Positions 14,327 through 61,974 of a DNA stretch of 64,000 nt are shown one piece after another. Position numbers and translations under genes: made by a program. Position 1 is the stretch's first letter, and each line of letters opens with the position of its first letter. The notes beneath the pieces are model-generated. The model had not been told where the DNA came from. It was given only the letters and a program-made list of their open reading frames with translations, and did not search any database. The stretch spans positions 38,753,296 to 38,817,295 of the forward strand of contig NC_030386.2 of the NCBI RefSeq assembly GCF_001625215.2. Direction: 5' to 3'. This DNA is from Daucus carota subsp. sativus (lineage: Eukaryota > Streptophyta > Magnoliopsida > Apiales > Apiaceae).

Positions 14327-14390
14327 CCCTCCAACTGCGAGACAATGGTCCTAGTAACCCTAGGATCCTGCCATTTACTAATAGACTTGC

Positions 14391-14836
14391 CATTTCCCAC
14401 TTTCCGTATACTTCCTGCACATTAAGTTCTTTAGCCTCGATGATACTATGCCATACGAAACTCGGGTTACTCATAATGCCAGCCTCTTCAAAAGAGCCAG
14501 AAGAGAAATACCTTGCCTCCAATAATCTAGAGATGAAAGACTGGGGTTCCATCATCAATCTCCATGCTTGCTCTCCCAGTAAAGCTAAGTTGAAATCTCT
14601 GATATTCCTGAACCATTTCCCACTTTCCGTATACTTCCTGCACATTAAGTTCTTTAGCCTCGATGATACTATGACATACAAAACTCGGGTTACTCATAAT
14701 GCCAGCCTCATCAAAAGAGCCAGAAGAGAAATACCTTGCCTCCAATAATCTAGAGGTGAAAGACTGGGGTTCCATCATCAATCTCCATGCTTGCTCTCCC
14801 AGTAAAGCTAAGTTGAAATCTCTGATATTCCTGAAT
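14391..14836. repeat. 223-bp tandem duplication within the LINE remnant
   Basis: The block starting CATTTCCCACTTTCCGTATA occurs at 14391 and again at 14614, and the two copies are nearly identical over about 223 bp. The same LINE protein segment is therefore encoded twice in a row on the minus strand. Confidence 0.85.
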
Positions 14837-24300: not shown

Positions 24301-24543
24301 AACCATCTCCACCACACTCCCCTCAAAATCCACCCAATCGCCGCCGCTATTATACAACAAACGCGCCACCACGCCACTGTTTTTAAAACAACCGTAATTC
24401 TGTAACAAACTCTGTACATAAAACGACGCCGTGTTAGTACTGTTAGAAGACTCAAAAAATCGCCGATCTCGAAATAAATTAACGTTAGGCTTATTTACAG
24501 GCTTCCGCGCGATCCGATCGCTGAGTAGAATCGACGAGTTCAT
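18387..24543 (-). CDS. RCD1/SRO-family protein (WWE, PARP-like, RST domains)
   Basis: Four exons on the minus strand: 24543-23291, 23163-22931, 22830-22664 and 18482-18387. Together they are 1749 bp, or 582 residues, with GT-AG introns and matching phases. Residues about 40-135 are a WWE domain (ARLLYNSGGDWVDFE, VEVEIGGVLCLFDFY, WIDVEGRSWFPK). Residues 167-264 are seven 14-residue repeats. Residues about 315-500 are the catalytically degenerate PARP-like domain (FAWIKCSSEGVQRILSYGF, FGVGIYLSP, NPKWYIVWGANMNTHILPE). The C-terminus is the RST domain (VPKGIFMKKLRSVVGDQM). RCD1/SRO1 proteins are nuclear hubs that bind transcription factors through RST and modulate stress and development; they are thought not to be active PARPs. 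The final 31 codons lie beyond a 4.2-kb intron. The start is the first Met of the long frame. Confidence 0.92.
18500..18900 (-). mobile_element. Possible LTR remnant inside the SRO intron
   Basis: Read leftwards, CCTATAAATATCTGTCAG followed by GAAGAAAATAAAATGG resembles the TATA and polyadenylation layout of a copia-type LTR. No second LTR, primer site or coding domain was seen, so this is tentative. Confidence 0.25.
19845..20123. mobile_element. Stowaway-like MITE
   Basis: 279 bp bounded by TA (19843-19844 and 20124-20125), with inverted ends CTCCCTCCGTCCCAC and GTGGGACGGAGGGAG. It lies inside the large SRO intron. Confidence 0.88.
20391..21392. repeat. Diverged tandem duplication, about 500-bp unit
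   Basis: Ordered blocks recur at a spacing of about 490-530 bp. AATAATTTAAAGAAC is at 20414 and 20901, TTTTAATATGATACAA near 20517 and 21012, and GTACAGATATAGAAG near 20696 and 21224. CATTAAAGTATATAATACCA follows in each copy. The copies differ by substitutions and small indels. No coding frame is present. Confidence 0.75.
21606..21885. mobile_element. Probable hAT-like MITE
   Basis: The segment runs from GAGCTTGTTTGGCAAACCC to CTAACACAAACGGCCCC. Its interior is self-complementary and rich in AGAAGT and ACTTCT. GGGCCGTTTG-type ends are common in plant hAT MITEs. The terminal inverted repeat is weak here and the target duplication is unclear. Confidence 0.45.
23752..24045 (-). repeat. Coding minisatellite, seven 42-bp units in SRO exon 1
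   Basis: Seven consecutive 14-residue units of the type IRVSGGELVNKGDG occupy residues 167-264 of the SRO protein. The unit length is exactly 42 bp, so copy-number change keeps the frame. They lie in the linker between the WWE and PARP-like domains. Confidence 0.9.
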
Positions 24544-26262
24544 TTTGAATAGATGGATGTAATAAAGCTTTTGCGCTTGAGCTTTTGAAAAATCTAGAAG
24601 TCTACGTAGAGGGGCAGTTTGTGTGTATTGTGTGTGTATATATGGGGGTTTTCCAATTCTGTGTAGGATTTGGAGTTTCTTACTCGGTTTCGGTGAATTT
24701 ACGCTTTTGCCCCTGATAATGGCATTTATCCGGCTTCTGTTACTTGTGTTCTAAGTTATTGTGTTCTATTTACAAATGTTTTTAGTATTAATATATGTTA
24801 TTAATAATAATTTTATTTTTTTTTAACTAATTATATTTAAGAGGATAATGATAAAGTTTTTGTCTTATTATATATGATGAGTGTTTTTAATATTTGAAAT
24901 TATTTAATAAAAGAAGAGTAATAGACCTAATATGTTGTAGACTTCTAGTTGTATAAAGAGAATACTGAACTGAAAAGAACATGACCAAACCAAAACCGAA
25001 AAGAACATGACCAAACCAAAAATTTGTACGACTACAAATTATACCCATGTTGGTTTATTATAGTATTGTATAGTATAGATTTAAGTATAATTTAAATACC
25101 TTTCCTAAAAAAAAAAGGATAATTTAAATACCTATAGACTATAGCTTGATGTATAAGATTTTATTAAGAAATATTATTGGAAAACTTTGGTTAAATATTA
25201 GTTCAAAACTGATAAAATATATTCTTTTATTTTAAATTACATGTCTTTTTCGGCCTTTTTTTATCAAAGTAATCAAATTTTGATTGGAAAATAAATATAA
25301 TTGTTTTATAATATAAATATATAAAATATCCATAATTTACTTTAAACTGAAATTTTCTGAATTATAGAATTATATAAAAATAAATTATGAGATTTACTAA
25401 AAATATTAGACTACTCTGACGTAAAAATTAAAGATAGACACGTAATATGAAATGGATAGAATAATAATTTTGATATAGATTTAATTAAAAAGATGGTAAG
25501 ACATAAGTATAAACGAAATCTTGTTTGGTTCGTAACTGAAGTTTAGAGATCAGAATTAAAAGTTTTTATAGCACACACGAAGACAACTGAATTATCTACA
25601 ATTTGAGGTGGTTCGACATTAGAAATCTAGTTGAAACAACTTAGAGTATAATCTATTTTGAGAGAGGATTTTGTATACATTAGAAGGATTGTTTTAACAA
25701 ATAGGATACATAAATTGAACAATAATTCATGATAGCCATCGAACTCTAGTTTTGTTTTGTCTCGCATTTATTATATAATTTAGTAAATATATAAAATTCA
25801 TTAATATATTTTCCGAATTTTTGAATTATAAGATATAAAAGACTTGAAATTAATATTGATATCATTTATTTTATGCGAACGATACTACTCAACAATAAAA
25901 ATCTATAAATATTTAAAGTTTTGTTTAATCACCTATTTAACCACTGTAAATATTTTCCACCACTTAGATTCACCTAATTATTTCGATAACAGGTTGCTTT
26001 TGTAAAACGGATAAAAAACGGACCGTTGCGCCACGAGTAGGGGGACTGGGGAGTCAGAGTGGCCATTTGCTACTCATAATTACTACTCCAGAAAGGGCGT
26101 ACGCGTATCCGGTATAAATGAAAAAGTAGGCCAAGCCTTATTTCTTCGTTGGCGGCTCTTTGGCTTTAACGTGAGGTTCTGTAATTGCTTTGGCCCCAAG
26201 TTAGCCGGCCATGATTTTGAATACACGCTGACTTAATGACCTCATTCAAGTCGTGTTTTTTA
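24544..26262. other. SRO promoter side and AT-rich intergenic DNA
   Basis: A TATATAT at 24637-24643 lies about 95 bp upstream of the SRO start (minus strand) and could be its TATA box. The remainder is AT-rich without coding signal, apart from a short direct repeat of AAAAGAACATGACCAAACCAA near 24977 and 25001. Confidence 0.4.
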
Positions 26263-40805: not shown

Positions 40806-41135
40806 TTATCGGGGAAAGGAGATGCGTAATTCTCCTCTAAAATATAGTAACATAATTTATTTAATTTTTTTTTTGTCATTTAGAATTTTTTAAAAATAAG
40901 TTATAAAACTGTACTTCAGAAGACTATTAAAATATGTATCGAACAAAAAACATATAAAAATAAATGAGACAGAAGGAGTAATATTTTTATATTATTATAT
41001 ATTTATTATGATTTTCTAATTTTATAATAAAAATAATTATATGTTATTTTAAAAATAAAATAAAATTAATTTGATCGATCCTCAATATTCCCCTGGCACG
41101 GAGTATTGAAAACCAGTCATATCCATCAGCGCGCG

Positions 41136-41141
41136 TATATA
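41136..41141 (+). promoter_or_regulatory. Putative TATA box of NAC-like gene A
   Basis: TATATA follows CAGCGCGCG and lies about 140 bp upstream of the start codon. The second gene has the same arrangement (CAGCGCGCCTATATAAAT at 45832-45849), which supports a shared, duplicated promoter. Confidence 0.55.
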
Positions 41142-41277
41142 ACTTCCCCCAGTGTTATTCACCCCGCAAACACACCCCATTACACACACTGATACACACA
41201 CACTCTAAGTAACTATTACTACTCTATTAGCACTTCAAGAAAACAACAACAAGAAGAAGAAGCCCCCATTAAAATCC

Positions 41278-43765
41278 ATGGCAGAACTGCCACTAGGCTG
41301 CAAGTTCGCCCCATCAGACACAGAGATATTCATATACTTGGACAACAAAGTAAATGGTCATAAACACCCAAATGTCAAGCTTGACCTTGTTAAAGAACTT
41401 GACATTTATGAGTCCTGCCCTCAAGATCATCAAGGTATTTTAATAACCCTGTTTTTGTTTATCTTGTTTGTTTTCTTGATCATGGTGGTCTTTGCATTTC
41501 AAGATTTTCTTGTTAATCACACATTTTATGTATTGTGCATTACTAGTTCAACTTGGATGATCATGAACTGTAATTTGCAAGTGTTTTTTTGTGTGTTTTC
41601 TTGATCATGGTGTGTGCTGATTCTTGGTTTCTTGAATCTTGATGGGTGATTATTGTTTTAGCCTAATGTGTCACGATTTTCGGGTTTACGACATTTTTTT
41701 GTCCTCAATGCTGCATGCACATATGCATGATGAGGATTTAATTGACCTGTTGTGATAAAGAATTAGACTGGGTATAAGCTGGTTTAGGAATTCGAATTCG
41801 ACCCATAAGGCGTAAGTTAGTGTTAACTTAAAATTGTGGAATTTTTTTAGAGTTTGGTAATGGCTTATAGGAGATTAGAGCCTTGTTAGAAAACCTCATA
41901 ACTGGTAAATTCATACCTAGTAGTTCTATCTTGGCACATTGTAGTAGAAATTGCAGTGCTGACCGGAATAAAGAACCTGACCTTCTGATGTTTCACTGGT
42001 ACGATCTGCAGTCTTGAATTCTAATGCGCCTCATAATATGTCTGAATGCTCATACCAGAACCTCTCGGTTACACCTGAAGGGAGGTATTTTTCCCTAATG
42101 ATGGAAACATAACCATCTCGTAAAAGGTCCTTGACCATGTTGTCACAAGAATTTATAAATGCTTTGCGTTAATTATGTAACGGGATGTCAATCCATATTT
42201 TTGTGTCAAGAATCAAACTCTCTGCCTTTCAAAGAAGTTTTATCAATGAAACTTCACCATACACCAGGCTCGCTAGCCACACCTAGTCTTCATTTGTTTC
42301 TGATACTTGCATCTTAGTGGCACAATGACTGAAAATGGCATGATATAAATTGAAAAATAACAGAATTTGGTTTCAGTAGGAATGAAAGAGTTGAATGTCT
42401 CCAAATCAAACTTATATGCATTAAATCCTGCTGTAATGGAATGTATTTATTAAAGTGGAAATGTATCATAAATTTCTTAAGGCTTGAGCAAAGAAGAGTG
42501 TACCTACATCTTCGCAACAAGAGTTGGTAAATATCAAACAGCCAGTCATCACAGTAATCGAAAAACAAGGGACGGGAAAGGTTCTTGGAAAATAAACAGA
42601 TCATCTGTGAAGTCCACACAAGGAACCAAGAAGCTCTTGACTTACTATCTGAAAAGTGAAAATTCAAGTGGCGAGAAGGAAAAGCGAACTGACTGGCATA
42701 TGCTTGAGTATGCACTAGAACCAGCTAACGCAGAGGTGTGTGTTTTATCTTACTGTATGTTTTGATTTCATTTAAATTAGTTAAGTTGATTGTTGACGAT
42801 CCTTAAAAAGTATACTTTGTTTTTACTTGCCAATGGCTTTACAGGTGAAGGTGAATGAGGGGAAGGTGAATGAGACGGTTTTGTGTCAAATTACCAAGGG
42901 CAAGAGGTATAAAAATACTGAAGTGACGGATGCAAAACAGGACGGTGATAGTTCTCCTGAAGATGGAACAGGCCTAGACAAAAGTGGAGTGAAGTTAATG
43001 ATGAATAAATCAAGTCAGGAGAATCAACAGAACACTGCTGCACTAGCGAATGAAGAGATTATTCTTATTGATTTCTTCTCAGGTGGCGTTGAGAATCAAC
43101 AGAACGCTGCTGCACCAGCAAGTGAAGGGACTGTTTTTACTGATTTGGGCTCAGATGGCGTTGAGAATCAACAGAACACTGCTGCACCAGCAAATAAAGA
43201 GATTGTTTTTACTGATTCGGGCTCAGATGGCGTAGAGAATCAACAGAACACTGCTGCACCAGCGAATAAAGAGATTGTATTGACTGATTTCTTCTCAGAT
43301 AGCGTTGAGAATCAACAGAACACTGCTGCACCAGCAAATGAAGAGACGGTTTTTAATGATTTGGGCTTAGATGGCGTTGAGAATCAACAGAACACTGCTG
43401 CACCAGCAAATGAAAATATTGTTTTTACTGATTTCTTCTCATCTGGCGTTGAGAATCAACAGAACACTGCTGCACCAGCAAATGAAGAGACGGTTTTTAA
43501 TGATTTGGGCTTAGATGGCGTTGAGAATCAACAGAACACTGCTGCACCAGCAAATGAAGATATTGTTTTAACTGATATGGGCTCAGATGGCATTGAGAAT
43601 CAACAAAACACTGCTGCACCAGCAAATGAAGATATTGTTCTTACTGATTTGGGCTCAGATGGTGTAGAGTCAAGCCAAGGTCATGATCTGCCCAAGAACA
43701 CTACTTCAGCAGCAGAGAATGATGTGGATCTGAGTTTAAGGCTGTGTACTGGTTCGCAAAACTGA
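41278..43765 (+). CDS. NAC-like protein A with 24-residue repeat tail and LSLRL motif
   Basis: Three exons (41278-41434, 42482-42735, 42845-43765) give 443 residues. The first 137 residues are a divergent NAC domain. LPLGCKFAPSDTEIFIYL corresponds to subdomain A and KELDIYESCPQDH to B. RKTRDGKGSWKI corresponds to C, TYYLKSENSSGEKEKRTDWHMLEYAL to D, and ETVLCQITKGKRYKN to E. The first intron falls where NAC genes usually have one. After a linker come nine 24-residue repeats (43016-43663), then ENDVDLSLRLCTGSQN at the C-terminus. DLSLRL fits the EAR repression motif LxLxL. NAC proteins are plant transcription factors that bind DNA through this domain; here several canonical residues are changed, so binding is uncertain. 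Inference: a repressor-type NAC. It is tandem with gene B. Confidence 0.82.
43016..43663 (+). repeat. Coding minisatellite, nine 72-bp units in NAC-like gene A
   Basis: Nine units of exactly 72 bp, each beginning GTTGAGAATCAACAGAAC or a close variant. They encode VENQQNTAAPANE followed by a variable acidic segment ending either DLGSDG or DFFSDS. The unit length preserves the frame. Confidence 0.95.
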
Positions 43766-45242
43766 CAGGTCATATTGATATGTTCAATGCAAGGCTACAT
43801 CGCGTGATAATAATTTGAATTCTGAAGAGGTCTTATATGGATATTCCGAGCATATGTACAAGTTTTATAGGACACAGTAACTATACATTGTCTTTTTGTT
43901 GAAGATCTCTGTGTTTCCGACGTATGATCCTTGCCCTGTTGCATTGGCTTTTAGTTACGAAAGGAGAAGTTTTCTGTGTTGTAAAAATAAGAACAAATTT
44001 ATCAGTGCTCTTCTGCCAAGTTTCTCTGTTCCATTTTCATACATATTCTACAAAAGTTTCTATGTGTTCCATATTGTCAACTTAGTCGTTTAATCCCTTA
44101 CTTACTTCTCCTTCACAGAATGAAGTTGAGAAGCACTGATAAGTAGTGCATACTTGAATTCCATTCCCCCTTCTTGCCTCTCTATGATTCAGCAGCTTTG
44201 TAAGCTCCCTCTCGATTGCAAAATCATAATTTTGAGATAAAAAGTAGCTGTTCTCATGCTATGTCTTGTGTTAGAGGGAGGAGACTATTAAATTTAAAAA
44301 ACAAAATCACCGAATCTATTAAAACATTATTTTCTTAACATCTTTTCTAAATTTAAAGTGAACGTGTTTAAAGACGAATCGGAGATACTCTTATGTCATT
44401 TCAGATCCCTCGACAACACAAAAGTTTTACTGAATATATCAAAATGGTATAGAATCAATCAATCAGATAGTAATAAACATAGAGCTTCCACTAATATACT
44501 ACTTAGCATAAATAAGGGGGGCTTTGATGATCCATAAGGCTATAATTTGGATCGAGCAATCCGAATTTCAGATGTAACTTGAACCAAATTTAATTGAGTC
44601 GCGCGAGCCGACTCGTTTAACTTTATCGAGTCAAAACTTTTATTCAATTACGAGGGCGAACCGGTTTTCACCAATCGGTCAAGACGACTCGTTTAAATAT
44701 ATAATATAGTCTAATTCTCTGTACAAACTCGGCTTGTTTACTTTCATGAGTCGAGTCGAGCCAGCTCATTTAACTAAACAAGACAAAACCTCTGCCCAAA
44801 CTCAACTCGTTTAATTAAACGAGCCGAATCGAGCCCGGTTAAACGATTTCAAGTCGGCCGTTGAATTATGCCTCTTTAAATCATAATAATTTATAAATTA
44901 TTATTTTTTAAAAAATATAATATCACTCTGGCAATACATAAATAAATAATATCATTCTTTAAAATATGAGACACATTTTATCATGAGCTCTACCTTATTT
45001 TTTAAAAATGTACCCACTCCGGAAAAAAATATAATACCAATCTTTAAAATGAAAAAACACATTATTATATTGAGAATTATACTCTCTCTGTTCGACCCAC
45101 ATTTTAATTCTCTTATAAAATATAGTTCAATAACTCATTTTTAAAAATATTTCTTCAGAGTAAAATTTTAAATATTAAATTTTTTATTAAAATGATAATA
45201 TTTTAAAAATAAATTATAAAATTATATTTTATAAAAATATTA
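43766..45242. other. 3' flank of NAC-like gene A and AT-rich spacer
   Basis: The first 230 bp are nearly the same as the sequence after gene B at 48480, so the duplication covers the 3' UTR. Around 44580-44870, repeats of ACTCGTTTAA/AACGAGCC resemble a decayed relative of the hAT element at 34907. A weak Stowaway-like end occurs at 45081. Confidence 0.55.
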
Positions 45243-45705
45243 CAGGGGTGTATTCGATTGGGATTTTAATGCATTGTTTTTAGTCTATGGATTTTAATGG
45301 ATTGTATGGGATTTTGATTTTTTGCGGATTCTTGATGAAATGTCGCAGAGTTGATAGGATTTAGGTACAATGCTTCAAAATCCCATTGAATTTGGTGGGA
45401 TTTCAAAAAACTTAAAATACACTGAAGAATGCCACAAAATCCATCATTTTATGAAATGAAAAAAAATCCATCAGCATTTGAATACCATCAGATTTTAATG
45501 GATTTTAAACAATCCCAATTGAATACCATCGGATTTTAAAGCATAATTTAAAATCCCAATTGAATACCACTAGATTTTGTAGCATAGTTTAAAATCCCAA
45601 TTGAATACCTCAAGATTTTAATGGATTTCAAACAATCCCAATCGAATACCCTCGGATTTCATGAATGCAAAAAAATGCTTTAAAATCCCAATCCAATACA
45701 CCTTC
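45243..45705. mobile_element. Tourist/PIF-Harbinger-like MITE
   Basis: 463 bp flanked by TTA on both sides (45240-45242 and 45706-45708), the three-base target duplication of PIF/Harbinger elements. The left end CAGGGGTGTATTCGATTGGG matches the reverse complement of the right end, GAAGGTGTATTGGATTGGG, and continues inward. The interior repeats TTTAAAATCCCAATTGAATACC several times. Non-coding. Confidence 0.8.
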
Positions 45706-45840
45706 TTAGAGTGTATACGGTGTGACATGTACTCCTCAATGCAATGGAATGCAGGGACTGCCAGGGAGTACTATCTTATTTTGAAAAAGAAAAAGGGAAA
45801 AGAATTTTATACCTGGTTTTTTGTATCATGTCAGCGCGCC

Positions 45841-45849
45841 TATATAAAT
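45841..45849 (+). promoter_or_regulatory. Putative TATA box of NAC-like gene B
   Basis: TATATAAAT follows TCAGCGCGCC, the same context as upstream of gene A. It lies about 230 bp before the start codon, with a GA-rich leader in between. Confidence 0.55.
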
Positions 45850-45901
45850 CTCTGCAGCGGCTGAATTACACCAACAGACCACTAGTATACATTATACAGA
45901 C

Positions 45902-46050
45902 TACAGAGAGAGATTATTAGAGAGAGAGAAGCCATTCGAGAGAGGGAGAGAGAGAGAGAGATTAGCTATTAGAGAGAGAGAGGTTAGCTATTCAGGAGAG
46001 AGAGATTAGCTACTAGAGAGAGAGAGAGGGCGAGAGAGAGGGAGAGAGAT
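45902..46050 (+). repeat. GA-rich microsatellite in the presumed leader of NAC-like gene B
   Basis: Interrupted runs of AG dinucleotides with ATTAGCTATT spacers fill the space between the TATA box and the start codon. Gene A lacks this tract. Confidence 0.9.
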
Positions 46051-46073
46051 TCTTGGTAAAACCCAGTGCATTA

Positions 46074-48479
46074 ATGGGGAAGGTAACTTTAGGCTACAAA
46101 TTTAAACCAAACGTGGACGAGGCATTCAAATACTTACGCAAAAAGGTGTACAATATTCAAGAACCAAATGTGGAGTTTGAGTCGCTCAAGGAAATTGATG
46201 TTTATCAGTTTTGCCCTCCTGATCATCCTGGTATATTCACAACCCCTTTCTTTTTTATCTTTATTTCACTAATCTTGTTATTGTTTCTAGTTTTCTTGAT
46301 CATGGTGAATCAATATCGTATATTTAGTTTCTTCCCTTTGTGTAAATCTTTAATTTCATTATTCTTGTTTGTGCTTGTTTTCTTGATCATGTTATTTATT
46401 CTACTTGTTCTGAGTTGTGAAAAATTGTTTGGGCATATGGTGAAATGAATATTCGGCACTTAAATAATCAAGTGTCATGATCTTGACATCAAGGTAATAA
46501 ATTACAAGAATCTGCCTCGATTACCCGTGTTCTTGAAATCAAGATAGTGTAACAATTAGACCCCTGAGTTGAAATTAGAATGTATTTAGCTATTTTCATC
46601 GCGTAAGTGCAGGTCGTATGAAATTATATGTTCTCTAAAGAATTTGCAAGAATATTTTTACATGAAATTTACTCTGAACTCAATAGATTTACCATTTGAT
46701 CTGGCTAATTCATGTGATGTGCATTGATTATGAAATACTCGCACCTCTGTGATCGTACTCTATATTCTCCCTGTATTCATACATCATAATCATCTGCCAG
46801 CCACACAGAATCTCATATATGTTTCTGATACTGGTGTCTTGAACTGAACAATTAGCTGGTTAAATTTGTGTAAAAGTAGCACTATAAAAATTGAACATTA
46901 ACGGCAACTGTAGAATTTGAACAACCAAAGATACTGGTTTCAATATGTATGAAGCAGTAAACCGTCTCCAAGTCTAACTGCGATTTGATCATGGTTTAGC
47001 CTTTGTTCTCTGATCTTATCATGTTTACTATCTATTTGCAATTAAGCTATTTCTTGTTCTTGATGTATTTGGTTATTTGGTTTTAATTTGTTTGTTGGAC
47101 GTTACTTTATGACCAACAAATGTGCAATATATTTATTAACGTGAAAATAAATCACAAAACAATTTAGAATTGAGCAAAGAAAAGTGTACTTACATCTTCA
47201 CACGAAGAGTTGCTATAAGCACACTATCACGTAAGATTGATCGGAAAACGAAGGACGGGAAAGGTGCTTGGGTTATGAGCGGATCCGATGAATTCAAGAT
47301 GGGAATGAGACACAATCTGGTTTACTATCTTAAAGGGGGAGATGTAAAGGGAAGGGGTCTGAAAACTGACTGGCTTATGCAAGAATATGTACTACATGCT
47401 GATGCAAAGGTGTGTTATATGTATATTCATAGTTCATTGTATGCTTATCTGTAAAATCAAATTAGTTAACCTAATTTTTAATGATCCTTGAAGAAGTATA
47501 AATTTCTATGCTCTGGCCAATCATGATGCAGGGGAAGGCGGATAAGACTATGGCCTTGTGTCGAATTTATACCAGGAATCCGAAAGAGTGTAAAGGAACA
47601 GATGGAAGCAAAGAGGAGTTAATGATGATTGAATCAAGCCAAGAGTATCAACAGAAGAACATAGTTGCTCCAGAAAACAAAGAGCTTGTTTGCACGAATC
47701 TGTACTTAGATAGTGACGAATCAGGCCATGGTCATGATCAACTGAAGAACACAACTTCAGCAAAAGAAGAGATTATTTTGACTGATTTCTTCTCAGATAG
47801 CGTTGAAAATCAACAGATCACTGCTGCACCAGCGAATGAAGAGATTATTCTTATTGATTTCTTCTCAGGTGGCGTTGAGAATCAACAGAACGCTGCTGCA
47901 CCAGCAAATGAAAAGACTGTTTTTACTGATTTGGGCTCAGATGGCGTTGAGAATCAACAGAACACTACTGCACCAGCAAATAAAGAGATTGTTTTTACTG
48001 ATTCGGGCTCAGATGGCGTAGAGAATCAACAGAACACTGCTGCACCAGCGAATAAAGAGATTGTATTGACTGATTTCTTCTCAGATAGCGTTGAGAATCA
48101 ACAAAACACTGCTGCACCAGCAAATGAAGAGACAGTTTTTAATGATTTGGGCTTAGATGGCATTGAGAATCAACAGAACACTGCTGCACCAGCGAATAAA
48201 GAGATTGTATTGACTGATTTCTTCTCAGATAGCGTTGAGAATCAACAGAACACTGCTGCACCAGCAAATGAAGATATTGTTTTTACTGATTCGGGCTCAG
48301 ATGGCATTGAGAATCAACAGAACACTGCTGCACCAGCGAATGAAGATATTGTTCTTACTGATTCGGGCTCAGATGGCATAGAGTCAAGCCAAGGTCATGA
48401 TCTGCCCAAGAACACTACTTCAGCAGCAGAGAATGATGTGGGTCTGAGTTTAAGGCTGTGTACTGGTTCGCAAAACTGA
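46074..48479 (+). CDS. NAC-like protein B with 24-residue repeat tail and LSLRL motif
   Basis: Three exons (46074-46230, 47168-47409, 47532-48479) give 448 residues. Exon 1 has the same 157-bp length as in gene A and intron phases are the same. The NAC domain reads LGYKFKPNVDEAFKYL, KEIDVYQFCPPDH, RKTKDGKGAWVM, VYYLKGGDVKGRGLKTDWLMQEYVL and ALCRIYTRN. It matches gene A only moderately in this domain, but the repeat tail and C-terminus (ENDVGLSLRLCTGSQN) are nearly identical. The tail has eight 24-residue units at 47802-48377. Subdomain E (ALCRIY) is closer to ordinary NAC proteins than in gene A. The start is the ATG at 46074, just before the domain. Function is inferred as for gene A: a NAC factor with a possible repression motif. 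Confidence 0.82.
47802..48377 (+). repeat. Coding minisatellite, eight 72-bp units in NAC-like gene B
   Basis: Eight 72-bp units with the same consensus as in gene A. The first five unit variants follow the same order as in gene A (ending FFSGG, DLGSDG, DSGSDG, DFFSDS, DLGLDG). Confidence 0.95.
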
Positions 48480-49700
48480 CAGGTCATGTTGATATGTTCA
48501 ATGCAAGGCTACATCGCGTGATAATGATTTGAATTCTGAAGGTCTTATATGGATATTCCGAGCATATGTACAAGTTTTATAGGACACAGTAACTATAGTA
48601 ACTATACGTTTTCTTTTTGTTAAAGGTCTCTGTGTTTCTGACTTGTGATCTTTGCCCTGTTGCATTACCTTTTAGTTACGAAAGGAGGAGTTTTCTGTGT
48701 TGTAAAAAAAAGAAAAAATTTATTTCCGAGATAGTACGTTCATTTTGTCATATGATGATTGATCTCTTCAACAGTATGTCTTGCTAGATGATAGCTGTTC
48801 GCACTATCACTGAAACTGCAGTCTGCAGGACACTTCATTTTGTCTTGGATATGTTTGCTTGTACACTGAGGGGATCTATGATTGGTCTCTTCGGGGGCAC
48901 CAAGCACCCTGTGCCTCTTACTAAATCCGCCCTGCTTATTCTCGTTAATGTTTTAGCTGAGTTCTTCGCTCGTTGCTCTTTTGATGGTAGCCTGTCTCAG
49001 GAAGTCCTATCTCACAACCTGCACAAGGAGGTGATCATTGTTACAAGTACTTACATTCCGATCCTTCATCCATTGCCACAGCTTTGTTCGATTTATCATG
49101 CCACTTCAGATCCAGCAAGAACAACACAAAGGTTTTACTGAATATCGAATCAAATAATAAACCTAGAGCTTACATAAGGCGTTCTCGATGAATCCATAAC
49201 AAAATTTATAAAAGATTTATTTATGAACTAGATTACTTTTTTGTTAAAATATATCAAGACAAAATTTTGATTTGGCTTGCATCCTTTATTTAATATAAGT
49301 AATATTCTATCAATTATAAAATTTTCACAAATGAAAAAAGTTAATTATTGAAATTTTTCTGAATTTTCTGAATAAACACATACGACACTTCAATTTTCTG
49401 TTAACCGAACATATACTCCTCTTCTTTTTAAACTAAATTCAAATTCCATTTTTATATTTTTTTTCTATGAATTTTTTAATTTTTTTTAATTTTATCATCA
49501 CATTTTCCTAATCAGGTACATATCATATAATTTAACAAAAAATATTTATTTTGACCGAACTTTCCAAAATATCGATGTCGATAATACATTTAACAATTGA
49601 TATATTAAAAATGAAATAAGTGACATAATTGATGATTAATCTATTTGTTAAATATTATTATTTTTTAAATTCGTAATAACTGTAAAATGATAAAACACAT
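48480..49700. other. 3' flank of NAC-like gene B, no further gene
   Basis: It starts with a near copy of the gene A 3' flank. Around 49098-49180 it again resembles the sequence at 44396-44500 (TTTTACTGAATAT, AATAAACCTAGAGCTT), so the duplicated segment extends at least this far. A 117-codon frame at 48788-49141 shows no family signature and was not called. Confidence 0.5.
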
Positions 49701-53425: not shown

Positions 53426-53988
53426 CAAATCATTACTCGGTTTCTTTTCATATTTCCAACATCTCCTCATTTTCTTTGCAACTCCCCGCTCTCTCAGACT
53501 CCTACTCTCCAGCAACCGGCGACGGTCCCAGTTCCGGCTTATTTCCACCGTTTCTTTCCGTTCTTTCTCCAACAAGTAAGTTCCTCTTCCATCCTCGTCG
53601 ATTTTTCTTACTGTCTTTGTAGAATGTTGTTAGATATCATGGATTCTTTGTATTGTATTTTCCGGCGAGTAGTTTTCTTTTGCCGTTTGTCTACATTGTG
53701 CTGGTTGTCGTAGATTAGGATTGTATTTTCCGGCGGTTCCCAGTTTTTCAACTTAGGTCTTGCCGCCGCTTCCCCCTCCGTTTTGCTGCTTTTATTTGTA
53801 TTTTAATTTCTGTCGCGTCTTGAATGTTGGTCGATTCGCTGCTTGGGTTGGCTCTCTAGGGTTAGGTTTGGTTGAGTCACGTTGGCCCGACCCGATTCGG
53901 CCCTCTGTACTCGGGCTTACTTCTTTTTCTTCTTTTTCTTTCTTTCCGAGTACAAGGCTTATGTTTGCCTTCTCTCGTTTGCAGGCAA

Positions 53989-55767
53989 ATGGATCGGTCG
54001 GGCGACGTAGTGGGTACATCTTATTCGGCTGCGGATCACTTTAGCGATGCGCTGAAGTTCCCCATGGCCAACTTCCCCTCTTTGTTGACCGAAGCGGACC
54101 TGAAAACGTTTCGGATAAAGTACCAGATCCATCGGTCCTGGGATATCTATGCGGCTGTTCCGGCTGACTGTATCTATCAGACCCCTGAGTCGGAGGACGG
54201 GCATCGGTGCGTTGGTATTTCCGAAAACGCTTTTAAGTGTGGTTTTCGGTTGCCGATGCTGCCCCTCCTGAAGAAGCTTTTGAAACAAATGGGGATCGCC
54301 CTGGGTCAACTGGATCCGAACGGGTTCACCTACATCAACGTCTTTCAGCATAGATGTTTGATGGCTGGCGTTTCTCCTCGGCCGGCTCTCTTCTGGAATC
54401 ATCATGATTTTAAGAAGAACGCCAAGAGCAATGGTTTCTACACCATCGGTCGCAAGACCGGCCGGCCGAATTGGTGCGAAACCAACTCGAGTAACAAGGG
54501 GACGCACGAACGGTGGTTCTTCTTGGGGGGTCACTCGATCCACAAGTTCTCGACGTGGAGAGAAGTCGACCCTTCGGTTATTACCACTCCCCATCTGGTC
54601 GGCAGGGATTTGGAGGACTTTGAGAAATTAAACAAAGTCCAGGAACCGAACCGAATCCTGTTGTCGATGAGTCGGGAAAAGGAGTGGCTCTTCACTCTTT
54701 GGGGTAGTGACGGTAGTCTCTTGTTTCTTCTATGCTTTTCCTTCTGATAGTCAATTGCTGGGTTTATATGTGCTTTATTGTTTTAACACTTGTCTTTTTT
54801 GTGCAGTGTCTTCCCGAACCGAAGCTCTCAAGAGGAAGACAGCGAAGGCAATGGCGGCCAGGAAGGAGGCCGAAGCAAAGGCTCGCGGCGAGCCGACGGC
54901 CGGGGCTATAGTTCAGGCCGATGCTTCCCGGGATAAGACTCCCGAGGTCGGTCGAGCGGATGGAATAGTCGAGAAATCCTCCGAGGTTGAGGAGGTTTCG
55001 GCTGTAGAAGCACCCAGGAAGAGGAATAGGCCGGACGGCTCGTCTGAAGTCCGGCCTTATGTCCCGGAGTGGTCGGTTCTGTCGACCGACTCAATCGCGA
55101 TCCTTGCTCCCGATCGGATTAAGGATGTCGCGGGCGATCTCTGCCGATCGCAGGTCTTGCCAGCCGACCGAGGAACTTACGAGTCGGCGACTGCTTTGCA
55201 AGCTTGCGAACAACTGATGTGTTTCCTTTCTTTGGTAAGTGCCACCGTTCTTCATCTATTTGTGTATATAGGTTCTGGATATGTTTTTTGACTTGTCTGA
55301 ATTTTGTGCAGGCTTCTCCTTGGGCGGCGGCGGTGACCGACAAGGTCCAAGATATGCAAAAGCAGATGGCTGGGGTCAATGCCCTCACTATTCGGGCCAA
55401 TCTCGCCGAGAGCACTCTCGCGGCCCTGAAGACGGAGCTGGACGCCGCCCACCAGGACCTGAAGGACCTTCGGGAGTCTGAAGGTCGTCTGAAGGGTCAG
55501 GTCGACACTCTGACCAGGAGGGTTCAGCGCCGCAACCTGGCACTGAAGGCCGCCCGAAAGAAGGAGAAGAAGACGAGGAAGCTTCTTGAGAAGACCGAGG
55601 ATCGGTTCCTTGATATTGGATATGACGAGGCGGTCCGTCGGGCCCACAAGGAAGGCTTGGATCATAAGTTGCTTTTGGACGAAGGCGCTTCTGATCCGGT
55701 CGGCCGTGAGGATCCGGACGAACCCCTTGTTGTTTCATCCGATCCCGAGACTGACTACTCGGAGTAA
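53989..55767 (+). CDS. Antisense accessory gene of the gypsy element (gypsy-type transposon domain)
   Basis: Three coding exons (53989-54703, 54807-55234, 55312-55767) join in phases 1 and 0 to 532 residues. The first ATG lies five bases after a splice acceptor, so a non-coding first exon is likely. The N-terminal 240 residues (FPSLLTEADLKTFRIKY, GFRLPMLPLLKKLLKQMGIALGQLDPNG, RWFFLGG) resemble the plant 'putative gypsy type transposon' domain, also seen in retrotransposon-derived proteins. The middle is basic and Ala/Glu-rich (EALKRKTAKAMAARKEAEAK). The C-terminal third is a long coiled coil (STLAALKTELDAAHQDLKDL) with an acidic end. It runs opposite to gag-pol, between pol and the 3' LTR. 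Antisense extra ORFs are known in Tat elements; their function is unknown. Confidence 0.8.
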
Positions 55768-56501: not shown

Positions 56502-59500
56502 TTACTGATAATATTTCCGGAGCTGGGAAGCATGCCAAGTGTTCTTAATGGGGCTTCCATCCGGAGTGGCAAGTTTGTACGTTCCCGGCCGAACTATCTC
56601 AACAACAGTGTATGGGCCTTCCCAGTTTGGCATAAGTTTTCCTTGCTTCGTCGGCATGGAAGTAGCCAAGTCTCGGAGAACCATGTCCCCAACTCTGAAA
56701 GAGCGTTTTCGGATACCCGAATCATAATATTGAGATGCTTGCTGTTGGTATCGGACGTTCCTCTGATGGGCGGCTTCTCTTTCTTCTTCCAAGAGATCCA
56801 GGTTGCCTCGGAGGCCATATTCATTGGTATCAGGATTGAAGACCTGGGTTCGGTAAGATTCCAGTCCAACCTCAACCGGGACAAGCGAGTCGGTCCCGTA
56901 AGCTAACCGAAACGGCGTTTCTCCTGTCGAAGAGCGAGGAGTGGTTCGGTATGCCCACAGGACCCAAGGGAGCTCTTCGGCCCATAATCCCTTAGCTTCT
57001 CCAAGGCGCTTCTTAATTCCGTGAAAGATGATCTTGTTAGCTGCCTCAATCGCCCCGTTCCCTTGGGGATGACCGACCGAGCTGAATCTCTGTTGAATGC
57101 CGAAGTTGGCCAAGAATTCCTTAAACTTCTTCCCAACAAACTGAGTGCCGTTATCGGACACACACACCATCGGTATTCCGAACCTTACAATTATTTGCTC
57201 CAGGAAGAATTTCTTGGCAGCCTGTTCGGTGATAGCCGAAAGTGGTCGGGCCTCGACCCACTTTGTCATGTAATCAATGGCCACTATGCAATATTTGGCT
57301 TGCCGGGTGCTGGTCGGTAGGATTCCAACTATGTCGATGGCCCACATGGAGAAAGGGATTGGGCTGAGGACCGAAGTCATTTCTTCCGGGGGTTGCTTCG
57401 GAACATTGCTGTGGATTTGACACTGTCGGCATTTCTTTGAATAGTTGGCCGCATCTTCCCTGAGGGTTGGCCAAAAGAATCCCTGTCGGAGTATCTTTAG
57501 GGCTAGGGATCGGCCGGCCAGATGTTCGCCGCAGATGCCTTCATGAACTGTCTCCAGAGCCAGAAGTTGTTCCTCTGGATCCAAGCATCGGAGCAGGGGC
57601 TGAGAGACTGATCGCCTAAAGAGTCGGCCCCCGATCAGTGTGTAGCTAGCTGCTCGGTACTTTATCTTTTGGGCTTCCTTCTTTTCTAAGGGCAGGAACC
57701 CCTCTTCTAGATATGCTCGGATGGGGGTCATCCAATTTATGCCTTGATGAATCTCCAGGCAAGCTTTCTTGTCGACCGAAGGCATCTTGACCTCCGTCAG
57801 GTAGATAGACCCCGTCAAATTCTGTGTTTCGGCCGAGGCTAAACGAGAGAGAGCATCGGCGCGGCCATTGTCCTCCCGACCGATGGCGCTTAATTCAAAT
57901 GTTTCGAAAAACAGAGTTTGTTCCCGTACTTTAGCGGCGTAAGCCTTCGTTCGGGGCTCTTTCTGTTCATACTCCCCAGAAAAGTGCTTGACAACCAGCA
58001 TGGAGTCACTGAAGGCCCTCAAATGCCTTACTTCCAGGTTTTTCGCTAGACCCATGCCTGCCAAGAGGGCTTCGTACTCGGCCTCGTTGTTGGTTAAAGG
58101 GAAAGTGAACCGGATGGCTTGACAAATCTCAAATCCCTCGGGACTAGAAAGGATCAATCCGGCCCCACACTTCGACCCGGCCACCGACCCATCCACAAAC
58201 AACTTCCACTTTCCTGGAGTCCGGATGAGCTGTTCCTTCGGCTCCAAGTCCTTCGGCCCGGAAAAGATGCACTCCACCATGAAGTCAACCAAGGCTTGGG
58301 CTTTAATTGCTGTTCGGGGAACGTACTCTAAGTCGTATTCCCCCAATTCTACAGACCAGGCGACGACTCTGCCCGAAGCCTCTGGTCGGCTGAGGATCTT
58401 CTTCAAAGGTTGGTCGGTGACCACTTGTATCGTTCGCCCTTGGAAGTAATGTCGCAATTTTCGGGAGGCCATGACCAGCCCATATGCGAACTTCTCGGCG
58501 TTCGGGTATCGGCTTTCGGCATCCCTCAGCATATGAGACACATAGAAGACCGGGTGTTGGTTATTCTCGTGCTCCTTCACTAAGACCGCACCAAGGGTTC
58601 GGTCAGTTACTGCTAAGTACAGCTGGAGGGTCTCCTTCGGATCGGGCCTTAGCAATAGAGGGGCTCTAACCAGATATTCCTTTATTTCTTCGAAGGCCTT
58701 TATGCAGTTCGGCCCCCACTCAAAATTCTTGGCTCCCTTCAAAACTTCAAAAAATGGGAGCGCTTTTTCTGCCGACCGAGAGATGAACCTTCGGAGGGCT
58801 GCCAGTCGCCCGGTCAGCCTCTGAATGTCCCGAATGGTCTTCGGGGCTTCCATTTCTAATACTGCCTTTATTTTTTCAGGATTCGCCTCGATCCCCCTTG
58901 CGCTGACCATATACCCTAGGAACTTGCCACTACAAACCCCGAAGGTGCACTTGGCGGGGTTGATCTTCATGTTGTTCCGTCTTAGGGTCTCAAAGCATTC
59001 CTTGAGGTCATCGGTATGATCTCGAAACAAGGACTTTACTATCATATCATCGACGTAGCATTCCATGTTTCGGCCTATCTGATCGGCGAAGACTTTATTC
59101 ACCATCCTTTGAAAAGTGGCCCCCGCATTTTTCAGACCGAAGGGCATCTTGATGTAAGCATAGGTTCCCTTCGGGGTGATGAATGCTGTCTTAGGAATAT
59201 CCTCGGCATCCATGGCGATCTGATGATAGCCTGAAAATGCGTCTAAAAAGCTGAGTATTTGATAGCCAGAGGTGGCATCTATCAGCTGATCGATGTTCGG
59301 CAGAGGGTAATGATCTTTCGGGCAATTTTTGTTGAGGTCGGTATAATCGACACACATTCTCCATTTGTTGTTTGACTTTTTGACCACCACCACATTTGCC
59401 AACCACTCGGGATACTCTATCTCTTCAATAAACTTGGCCTCCAATAACTTCTCCACTTCGGCCTCAATCACCTTCTGCCTCTCCACAGCGAAGTTCCTCT

Positions 59501-61943
59501 TTTTCTGCTTAACGGGCACAGCCTGTGGATGAACATTTAGTCTGTGCCGAGCGATCGACTCATCCAACCCTGGCATATCCTCGGGCCCCCAGGCAAAAAC
59601 ATCATGGTAGCGACGGACCACATCAATCACTTTTTCCTTCAACCCTGGTTCCATATCTTTGCCGATCCGAACCATTTTTCCCGAGCATCCTGCATATAAT
59701 TCCACCTCTTCGGTTTCAGTGCCCGGTTCGGCTATCGGGTTTGAGAGATCATTTCCAAACTTCTCCAACTCAATATGGAGGGCATGGCCGCTGCCCCCAG
59801 GACCATCTTCGGTTCGGCGCCGTTTGTTTCCTTCGGCGCCACCTAGATCCTTATCTTTCTCCAAGTCTTCCAGCATAATGATCCTAGCTGCCTTCTGATC
59901 ACCTCTCATCTCTCCCACCCCCTTTTCGGTCGGGAACTTCAACTTAAGATGGGGAATAGAGGCAATGGCTTCGAAAGCAGTGAGAACAGGCCTCCCCAAG
60001 ATGGCATTGAAGGGACTCTCGACTCGGACCACATAGAACTTGACCTGCTTTTCCACAGTATAAGGGGATTTACCGAGCAATAGGGGCAAGTGGATCGTAC
60101 CTTCAATCGGGACCGGCTGGTTGCCGAAACCATAGAGGGGTGCCTCATAGCAGGTATCGATCTGCTTGCCTTCCAGGTTCATCTTCTGGTAGGTGTTGTA
60201 GTAGAGGACGTTAACAGAACTTCCCCCGTCAACCAGAACCTTCCAGATCTTGTTTTGGCCGATCACGGGATTAATGACCAACGGATCCTCGTGCGGCAGC
60301 ATAACATCCTCATAATCTTCTTGTGAAAACATTATAGGATACGACTGTTTGGTGGAGTTGATGCTATAGAGGTTGTAGACCTGTCGGGCGTACTTCTTCT
60401 TAGCCGTTTTGCTACTTCGGTCCAGAATTGTTCCCCCGAAAATCGTTCGGACCTCACCTCTGTACCTCTCACCTTCTTCGGGCGCCTTCCCTTTATCTTC
60501 TTTGGGACCCAACCGATCCCTCAGATCCTTAACATACTGGTTTAAATCACCAGCCTTGACCATCCTCTCTATTAACTTCTTCAAGTGGTAGCATTCATCG
60601 GTATTATGCCCGTTGTCCCGATGGTAGTCGCAATACTTATCAGAGTTCTTCTTGTAATCTGGGATCTTCATCTTCGGCGGTCGAACGAATCCTGGTTTCC
60701 CTTTAATTTCGTTAAGAATCTTGGAGACAGATGTATTCAGAGGAGTGAACACAGTGCTGTCTCTATCTCTCCTTCGTTCGGCCCCCCTATCCGGCTTTTC
60801 ATCCCTTTCATCTCTCCTGCCTCGGTGGCCATCATTTCTTTTTCCCCTGCCGTCCGAACGGGAACTGTATCGATCATCTTTCCGGTCGCTCTTGTGTCCC
60901 CCGATGGATTCCATCTTCCTTCTGATGCTTTCTCCCCGCAAATAGATGTCATTCAGCGATTTGGGGGGTATATCATACAAAGATGATCGGAGCTTCTTAC
61001 CCTTCACCGGATCCAGACCAGCCGTCAGGAACCCTGCAGCCTTCACCTTATCCAGATTAGTGACCATCCCAGCTTCTTCCTTGAACCTGGCCAAGTAATC
61101 GCCCAACTCCTCATTGGGTCTCTGTCGGCAATGAATTAGGGCTTCTGTATCCTTCTCTCTTCGGCACAAGTGAGAGTAGTGCCTCAAAAACTTGCGTTTC
61201 AATTGATCATAAGAACTGACCGACCTTGGTCGTAGGGATCGGTACCACATCGTAGCGGATCCCTTCAGGTAGGTCTTAAACATCTTGCATAGCATGATGT
61301 CACAATGCCCCATTCCAGTCATCAGGGACTCGTACTTGTCGCAGTGATCGATCGGGTCGCCCTTCCCGTTAAATTCATTCATCTTCGGGAACTGTCTACC
61401 CGGGGGCGGCCGATATTGCTCGATCTCCTCGACTATCACTGGCTCATGGGTCAACGTCTTGTCCCCAAACATGGCCTTCTCCATTCGGCGAAGTCGGTCC
61501 CTAACGTGGGGACCTTCCTCTCCTTCGGTATCCGAAGGTGTGACATGCCTGTGACGAGGCCCTCGGGAATGCGACTCGGAGTCCGAAGACCCGTCTTGGT
61601 CTTCCCGATTCCTCTTCTTATTTCCTTCGCCTTCCGGCACTCGATCTCCTTCGGCCTCCAAGGCCTCTCGGAGAGCTCTCTCTTGGAGCTCAATCTCTTC
61701 CCTTTGTAGCTGGAGGGCCTTTAGCCGGAGTTCGTCGGCTTCCCTCTTCTTGGCTAGTCGGGCAGCTTCTTGCTCTTTGGTCTTGGAAGATTGGGCTTTA
61801 GCAGCCTGCTCTTCTCGCCATTTCAACAGCATCTGCTGTTGTTCTTCGGGGGTGGGCAACAGCCCTTCGGGACTATTGCCAAAGTCGAAACCTGGGTTTG
61901 GGTTGGAGGTATTTCCAGTGGTTTGTTCGGTTGTGTTTGTCAT
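56502..61943 (-). CDS. Gag-pol polyprotein of a Tat-type Ty3/gypsy retrotransposon
   Basis: A single intact frame of 1813 residues. The N-terminus is charged and probably coiled coil (35-115). The gag domain spans about 185-350 (FNGKGDPIDHCDKYESLM). The zinc-knuckle-like CDYHRDNGHNTDEC follows near 438. The protease active site is VDGGSS (Asp572). Reverse transcriptase carries MCVDYTDLNKNCPKDHYPLP and YVDD at 963-966. The first RNase H follows RT, and a second lies near 1250 (KWKLFVDGSVAGSKCGAGL). Integrase has an HHCC-type zinc region (HEGICGEHLAG, CRQCQIHS) and the acidic triad in WAIDIVG, VSDNGTQF and GAIEAANK. Two RNase H domains point to the Tat lineage. The ATG lies about 30 bp past the primer-binding site. 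No stop or frameshift is seen, so the enzymes may be functional. Confidence 0.95.
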   Translation of the reverse strand: MTNTTEQTTGNTSNPNPGFDFGNSPEGLLPTPEEQQQMLLKWREEQAAKAQSSKTKEQEAARLAKKREADELRLKALQLQREEIELQERALREALEAEGDRVPEGEGNKKRNREDQDGSSDSESHSRGPRHRHVTPSDTEGEEGPHVRDRLRRMEKAMFGDKTLTHEPVIVEEIEQYRPPPGRQFPKMNEFNGKGDPIDHCDKYESLMTGMGHCDIMLCKMFKTYLKGSATMWYRSLRPRSVSSYDQLKRKFLRHYSHLCRREKDTEALIHCRQRPNEELGDYLARFKEEAGMVTNLDKVKAAGFLTAGLDPVKGKKLRSSLYDIPPKSLNDIYLRGESIRRKMESIGGHKSDRKDDRYSSRSDGRGKRNDGHRGRRDERDEKPDRGAERRRDRDSTVFTPLNTSVSKILNEIKGKPGFVRPPKMKIPDYKKNSDKYCDYHRDNGHNTDECYHLKKLIERMVKAGDLNQYVKDLRDRLGPKEDKGKAPEEGERYRGEVRTIFGGTILDRSSKTAKKKYARQVYNLYSINSTKQSYPIMFSQEDYEDVMLPHEDPLVINPVIGQNKIWKVLVDGGSSVNVLYYNTYQKMNLEGKQIDTCYEAPLYGFGNQPVPIEGTIHLPLLLGKSPYTVEKQVKFYVVRVESPFNAILGRPVLTAFEAIASIPHLKLKFPTEKGVGEMRGDQKAARIIMLEDLEKDKDLGGAEGNKRRRTEDGPGGSGHALHIELEKFGNDLSNPIAEPGTETEEVELYAGCSGKMVRIGKDMEPGLKEKVIDVVRRYHDVFAWGPEDMPGLDESIARHRLNVHPQAVPVKQKKRNFAVERQKVIEAEVEKLLEAKFIEEIEYPEWLANVVVVKKSNNKWRMCVDYTDLNKNCPKDHYPLPNIDQLIDATSGYQILSFLDAFSGYHQIAMDAEDIPKTAFITPKGTYAYIKMPFGLKNAGATFQRMVNKVFADQIGRNMECYVDDMIVKSLFRDHTDDLKECFETLRRNNMKINPAKCTFGVCSGKFLGYMVSARGIEANPEKIKAVLEMEAPKTIRDIQRLTGRLAALRRFISRSAEKALPFFEVLKGAKNFEWGPNCIKAFEEIKEYLVRAPLLLRPDPKETLQLYLAVTDRTLGAVLVKEHENNQHPVFYVSHMLRDAESRYPNAEKFAYGLVMASRKLRHYFQGRTIQVVTDQPLKKILSRPEASGRVVAWSVELGEYDLEYVPRTAIKAQALVDFMVECIFSGPKDLEPKEQLIRTPGKWKLFVDGSVAGSKCGAGLILSSPEGFEICQAIRFTFPLTNNEAEYEALLAGMGLAKNLEVRHLRAFSDSMLVVKHFSGEYEQKEPRTKAYAAKVREQTLFFETFELSAIGREDNGRADALSRLASAETQNLTGSIYLTEVKMPSVDKKACLEIHQGINWMTPIRAYLEEGFLPLEKKEAQKIKYRAASYTLIGGRLFRRSVSQPLLRCLDPEEQLLALETVHEGICGEHLAGRSLALKILRQGFFWPTLREDAANYSKKCRQCQIHSNVPKQPPEEMTSVLSPIPFSMWAIDIVGILPTSTRQAKYCIVAIDYMTKWVEARPLSAITEQAAKKFFLEQIIVRFGIPMVCVSDNGTQFVGKKFKEFLANFGIQQRFSSVGHPQGNGAIEAANKIIFHGIKKRLGEAKGLWAEELPWVLWAYRTTPRSSTGETPFRLAYGTDSLVPVEVGLESYRTQVFNPDTNEYGLRGNLDLLEEEREAAHQRNVRYQQQASQYYDSGIRKRSFRVGDMVLRDLATSMPTKQGKLMPNWEGPYTVVEIVRPGTYKLATPDGSPIKNTWHASQLRKYYQ

Positions 61944-61974
61944 GGTGTTGTTTTATGAGAAATTCTACTTGCAG

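Follow-up and report, generated by a model that had tools for sequence, protein, structure and literature searches.

Near-identical repeat tails on two diverged tandem NAC-type genes of carrot: probable recent gene conversion

How can two neighbouring genes carry almost the same tail when the domains in front of it have long since diverged? The question is raised by a stretch of 64,000 bp from Daucus carota subsp. sativus (the window; contig NC_030386.2, positions 38,753,296 to 38,817,295), in which two NAC-type genes, A (41278-43765) and B (46074-48479), lie in tandem on the + strand and both end in an in-frame array of 72-bp repeats. The window belongs to contig 6 (40.9 Mb) of a genome of 441 Mb in 11 contigs, and all searches refer to this one genome. 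We consider it likely that recent ectopic gene conversion copied about 1 kb between these old tandem NAC duplicates.

The two genes and their arrays

Each gene is predicted to have three exons with the NAC domain in exons 1-2, an agreement in layout already stated in a preliminary description of the locus. The exon borders are splice predictions from sequence alone; all introns are GT-AG, the reading frame is kept, and the predicted products measure 443 (A) and 448 (B) amino acids.

41278-41434, + strand: gene A exon 1, start of the NAC domain (ATG, GT donor, frame)
42482-42735, + strand: gene A exon 2, remainder of the NAC domain (AG/GT splice sites, frame)
42845-43765, + strand: gene A exon 3, linker, array and C-terminus (open frame 42797-43765)
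46074-46230, + strand: gene B exon 1 (splice prediction, frame)
47168-47409, + strand: gene B exon 2 (splice prediction, frame)
47532-48479, + strand: gene B exon 3 (splice prediction, frame)

Both spliced proteins match the PF02365 (NAM) profile over nearly its full length and above the gathering score of 27 (A with 68.6 bits over profile positions 1-122, B with 59 bits over 3-122), which assigns them to the NAC family. The nearest solved structure is ANAC019 (1ut4), to which the domain of gene A, the only one compared, aligns over ∼132 residues (expect value, E, 3e-8). With NAC (NAM/ATAF/CUC) transcription factors A and B share the three-exon layout in which exons 1-2 encode the domain. They differ from ANAC019 in the segment that reads GYWKATG there, GSWKINR in A and GAWVMSG in B, and from known NAC factors in their tail, a tandem array of 24-residue units. 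The WKATG-type segment is the DNA-contact segment of the NAC domain, and its canonical form is absent from A (SWKINR) and B (AWVMSG). Since it is altered in both, we call the genes diverged and not canonical NAC genes; they may encode NAC-type DNA-binding regulators with differing DNA-reading surfaces.

Between themselves the two domains are only moderately similar, as had been described. Protein identity in exon 2 is ∼45%, synonymous (dS) and nonsynonymous (dN) divergence in exons 1-2 amount to 0.875 and 0.442 (133 codons), and dS is 0.766 in the part of exon 3 ahead of the array (36 codons). Introns 1 and 2 retain short old similarity only, with local scores of 44 and 42 compared to shuffle maxima of 37 and 29. 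The tails are composed as follows, letters denoting unit variants.

43019-43666, + strand: gene A array of nine full 72-bp units, a b c d e h e i j, the two e units identical (repeat search, unit comparison)
47805-48380, + strand: gene B array of eight full 72-bp units, a b c d e d i j, preceded by unit z, the two d units identical (repeat search, unit comparison)
47643-47804, + strand: older diverged module present in B only, a degenerate unit and then unit z (similarity search, unit comparison)
43667-43765, + strand: gene A terminal quasi-unit and C-terminus, with LSLRL (LxLxL, EAR-like) at 43730-43744 (frame, motif search)
48381-48479, + strand: gene B terminal quasi-unit and C-terminus, with LSLRL at 48444-48458 (frame, motif search)

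Seven units (a-e, i and j) correspond in order between the arrays, with 3, 3, 1, 0, 3, 3 and 5 mismatches per 72 positions, respectively. The total is 18 mismatches in 504, a value that 100,000 random pairings never reached. Units of different type show 6-13 differences per 72 positions within A and 3-15 within B, where the low end is i versus j. Each of the units a-e resembles the same-lettered unit of the other gene more than it resembles units of any different type. The common order of the first five variants, reported earlier, is thus recovered, and the units pair by position across the genes, unlike independent expansions with unrelated unit order. Within each array one unit also recurs unchanged two positions further on (e in A, d in B), and this duplication is probably younger than the exchange between the genes.

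In these tails divergence between A and B is low: dS is 0.039 and dN 0.025 for units a-e (120 codons), and the corresponding values for units i and j together with the C-terminus, whose near identity had been noted before, are 0.057 and 0.033 (80 codons). Compared to exons 1-2 (dS 0.88 versus 0.04-0.06 in the exon 3 tail) this is a ∼20-fold synonymous contrast (Fisher p 6e-16, from rounded counts), so identity is far from even over the exons.

The near-identical tract

Plotted in windows along the aligned loci, the near identity forms a sharp block. A change-point model gives 55% identity before it, 95.6% inside (864 columns) and 42%, a background value, after it (489 columns). The log-likelihood is -1531 for three segments, -1776 for two and -1856 for one, and the top identity segment scores 675, whereas permuting the columns 2,000 times gave no score above 49; both analyses omitted the module 47643-47804 of B and the middle units, in number of which the arrays differ.

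43019-44002, + strand: proposed conversion tract in gene A (change-point estimate 42993-44002)
47805-48723, + strand: proposed conversion tract in gene B (change-point estimate 47617-48723)
43766-44002, + strand: part of the tract in the 3' untranslated region (UTR) of gene A, identical to 48480-48723 at 220 of 235 aligned bases
44393-44443, + strand: collinear diverged patch beyond the tract in A, matching 49098-49154 (79% of 57 columns, E 6e-8)
49098-49154, + strand: collinear diverged patch beyond the tract in B, matching 44393-44443

The 5' edge at 43019/47805 was set by the register of the units, while the change-point model places it at 42993/47617. In the 3' UTR, which accounts for the ∼230 bp of near-identical flank in the preliminary description, identity is 93.6% with two gaps of 2 and 9 bases. 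Past 44002/48723 it falls to 33-43% over the four 100-column windows that follow.

One alternative is that strong purifying selection, or a cold spot of mutation at this place, might have kept the tails alike since the duplication, and the first half of the unit is indeed almost invariant. However, synonymous sites and the 3' UTR are also little changed, and since the UTR is non-coding, its identity cannot be put down to constraint on the protein. In comparisons of one unit with another, dN is close to dS (0.146/0.130 in A, 0.142/0.177 in B), and the variable columns among the 17 units are spread evenly across the codon positions (11, 10 and 10 of 24). Because of these two features, the exact unit sequence is by all appearance weakly constrained while the frame is kept, so the protein does not seem tightly constrained, and conservation since the duplication is very improbable. 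An assembly or polishing artefact that duplicated one array onto the other locus deserves mention since near-identical arrays are difficult to assemble, but the copies differ by ∼4%, have unequal unit numbers and an exact duplicate of their own each, and show indels in the UTR, which makes such an artefact scarcely credible.

A different case is unequal crossing-over between A and B with later loss of a third copy. The arrays are natural mispairing sites, and a hybrid gene that had received the other's 3' half would likewise combine an identical tail with an old front. This exchange predicts that identity continues downstream, whereas it stops at 44002/48723 and an old, diverged but collinear patch follows ∼380 bp further on; for this reason we regard unequal crossing-over as unlikely. 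The alignment of the patch scores 56 compared to at most 38 in 300 shuffles, and it is this patch that tells gene conversion from the mere end of a duplication. We also considered the patch as a dispersed repeat and rejected this: a genome DNA search with 44360-44520 returned itself only, although this search also misses the diverged copy in B and may have missed diverged copies elsewhere.

The conversion template could alternatively have been RNA or its complementary DNA, if the reverse-transcribed 3' end of a transcript had repaired the other gene. The tract lies within one exon and the 3' UTR, crosses no intron and ends in A-rich sequence ∼240 bp past the stop codon, as this route would have it. 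Yet the sequence at the tract edge shows no poly(A) tail, and any conversion confined to exon 3 would be intron-free as well, which leaves the route distinctly unlikely.

Old homology is found on both sides of the tract, in exons 1-2 and parts of the introns on the 5' side and in one short collinear patch on the 3' side. With identity far above its flanks and diverged homology on either side, the tract bears, as judged from the alignment, the features of gene conversion, its 3' edge being less firm than its 5' edge. The preliminary description had offered conversion, unequal exchange or the recent copying of a new 3' half onto an older duplicate, and among these three conversion fits best.

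A repeat-free relative and the history of the pair

Searches found no counterpart of the array or the tail elsewhere in the genome. With the A array as DNA query the whole genome yielded nothing besides A and B (two of two candidates), and when a shortened tail of B served as protein query, all seven matches fell within A and B. NAC domains themselves are common: the 150 candidates scored out of 225 gave at least 164 matches, and many of these are single exons. Among the matches listed in searches with A and C, the nearest other NAC relative of A and B is a gene that we call C (contig 6, 39255472-39256233, in locus L018, 39250500-39260400), which lies on the opposite strand 454 kb from A/B, and no relative outranks A, B and C there. 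The search with gene C found, after itself, B (2e-12) and A (1.6e-8), the best of the other NAC loci reaching 2e-6 among the 25 matches listed. Gene C is open as a single exon and has no array. Its NAC domain contains no intron, unlike those of A and B; gene C could be a retrocopy or could have lost its introns.

For a tree of exon-2 NAC sequences 34 loci were taken in; L010 gave no match and L009 was too short, leaving 32 to which A, B and C were added. L005 corresponds to gene C, and the overlapping loci L008 and L037 have identical rows. The tree separates A, B and C from the remaining 31 rows (support 97/87) and does not resolve how the three are related.

The end of gene C, ENDIDLTLKLATMIQ, is identical to the end of gene A, ENDVDLSLRLCTGSQ(N), at 9 of 15 positions. 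Since a repeat-free gene ends in a similar motif, the array seems to have grown inside an existing tail and not to have come as a new 3' half. The C-terminus was probably present in the common ancestor of A, B and C, with the array growing between the domain and the motif. The older module in B points in the same direction: 47643-47762, a degenerate unit with a terminal-type piece, matches the last unit and terminal quasi-unit of A (43595-43711) at 72% (E 9e-12), and unit z, a terminal-type start fused to a d-type end, differs from its nearest unit at 17 of 72 positions. Because this module is about as diverged as the NAC exons, such repeats seem to be old and their homogenisation young. Given the motif without repeats in gene C and the old module kept by B, the copying of a new 3' half onto an older duplicate is less likely.

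We propose that A and B arose by an old tandem duplication of a diverged NAC gene with an LxLxL (EAR-like) motif at the end of its protein, and that one 24-residue tail unit was duplicated early to form an in-frame array. Much later, ∼1 kb comprising the array, the C-terminus and ∼240 bp of 3' UTR would have been copied from one gene to the other by non-reciprocal ectopic recombination, an exchange that the repeat units, as long and easily mispaired homology, may have favoured. Each array would then have been altered internally on its own, giving the second e in A and the second d in B, while the NAC domains, untouched by the exchange, would have gone on diverging. That B keeps the old module at the 5' edge while A joins the tract abruptly points weakly to a transfer from B to A. 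At a silent rate of 7e-9 per site per year, the tract would be ∼3-5 million years old compared to ∼60 million years for the genes.

Several observations weigh against this history. A and B were compared within one genome, which by itself fixes neither the direction nor the number of events, and divergence in the 3' UTR (6.4%) is slightly above that of the array, so that there may have been more than one event. At the end of the array the pairing is weaker: unit i pairs across the genes in A and is tied with j on the B side, and unit j pairs across the genes in A only, the j of B being nearer to the i of B (3 mismatches) than to the j of A (5). The weakest link is the downstream patch, which is short (57 columns and ∼20 more) and separated from the tract by ∼380 bp (about 390 in A and 374 in B) that are wholly unaligned; the 3' edge could thus be the original end of the duplication, with a chance or transposed patch behind it. 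Furthermore, the exon-2 tree, resting on 80 columns and with implausibly long branches for A and B, joins B with C (93/89), so that A and B do not come out as sisters. The C-terminal match between A and gene C, finally, has an E of 0.13 alone and is credible by its position, not by its score.

Partial (ectopic) gene conversion between tandem plant paralogues is a known phenomenon, and A/B resemble it in their tract of high identity inside diverged genes. What sets them apart from partial conversion elsewhere is that the tract falls on an in-frame minisatellite and spared the DNA-binding exons. Conversion of tandem duplicates is an ordinary process; here it would have acted in an unusual place, on diverged NAC genes with an in-frame minisatellite for a tail. 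A literature search for partial conversion in tandem plant genes returned nothing beyond mammalian work. That no NAC family with such a tail has been described can be tested only lightly: literature joining NAC with repeats or gene conversion yielded only work on the apple WRKY10 promoter, and among the titles listed for tandem duplication of carrot NAC genes none concerned NAC tails.

The shared tail and its surroundings

A and B each contain one LSLRL, and LTLKL can be read from the tail of gene C. The C-terminal DLSLRL in A, GLSLRL in B and DLTLKL in gene C resemble the DLELRL of the EAR-motif repressor SUPERMAN, although among EAR motifs (LxLxL / DLNxxP) a pattern of five residues is a weak signature. 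PMC6479872 gives DLELRL as the minimal SUPERMAN repression motif and names NAC among the prominent DLN-repressor families in rice. From their sequence, A and B may share an acidic repeat spacer that bears an EAR-type repression motif at its end; a search for literature on NAC with EAR motif and VNI2 found nothing.

For both tails the best AlphaFold2 models agree at low confidence, mean pLDDT (predicted local distance difference test) of the five models ranging from 54.6 to 38.2 and from 60.1 to 38.0. AlphaFold2 tends to over-predict solenoids on repeats, an artefact on which our literature search found nothing, and the models, with any likeness to Curlin repeats and beta-solenoids (CsgA, 8c50), are a lead only. 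SUMO-interaction motifs common to the units were considered and rejected, as by eye only unit a resembles the consensus.

A doubtful further view is one of modular concerted evolution, in which minisatellite-aided recombination would keep a shared effector tail, namely a beta-solenoid with two strands per unit or an assembly-prone, curlin-like spacer together with the EAR motif, on two regulators with diverging DNA-reading surfaces, so that different genes would be addressed via the same partner. On the conversion reading itself, A and B make a clean two-gene case, in which the tail of a transcription factor evolves by recombination and the DNA-binding half by point mutation. The pair offers a test of whether in-frame minisatellites promote conversion between paralogues and keep effector domains shared after duplication. 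Since silent divergence differs ∼20-fold within A/B, trees or dates based on whole NAC proteins may blend two histories.

The promoter context, described earlier as common to both genes, agrees in a 17-bp TATA block (41126-41142 / 45831-45847) and in nothing beyond that block; as the best local match of the upstream regions it scores 29, compared to at most 28 in 300 mononucleotide shuffles. A repeat insertion upstream of B has no counterpart upstream of A. Ahead of gene B, ∼370 bp from its start codon, lies an element at 45247-45702 that resembles a miniature inverted-repeat transposable element. Its ends are inverted (GGTGTATTsGATTGGGATTTTAAwGCATT), its interior contains 41-bp tandem repeats, and it has no match elsewhere in the window. 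The best 40 of 2314 first-look candidates in the genome, the copy at 45247-45702 included, are 98-100% identical, and by this measure at least part of the family has spread very recently. The 5' UTR of gene B contains a long GA-rich run (45938-46051) of GAGA repeats with an imperfect 44-bp period, unlike the leader of gene A, in which no run of four or more GA occurs.

Elsewhere in the window, a gene on the - strand (23287-24750) with a WWE domain (PF23467), which we take to be an SRO/RCD1-like protein, has an in-frame minisatellite of 6.8 copies of 42 bp at 23761-24046. A unit of 223 bp is duplicated in tandem at 14390-14835 with 98% identity. The long open frame at 56502-61952 (- strand) reads by eye as a Ty3-type retroelement polyprotein, and a Transposase_28 (gypsy-type) match in the frame 53866-54744 goes with it.

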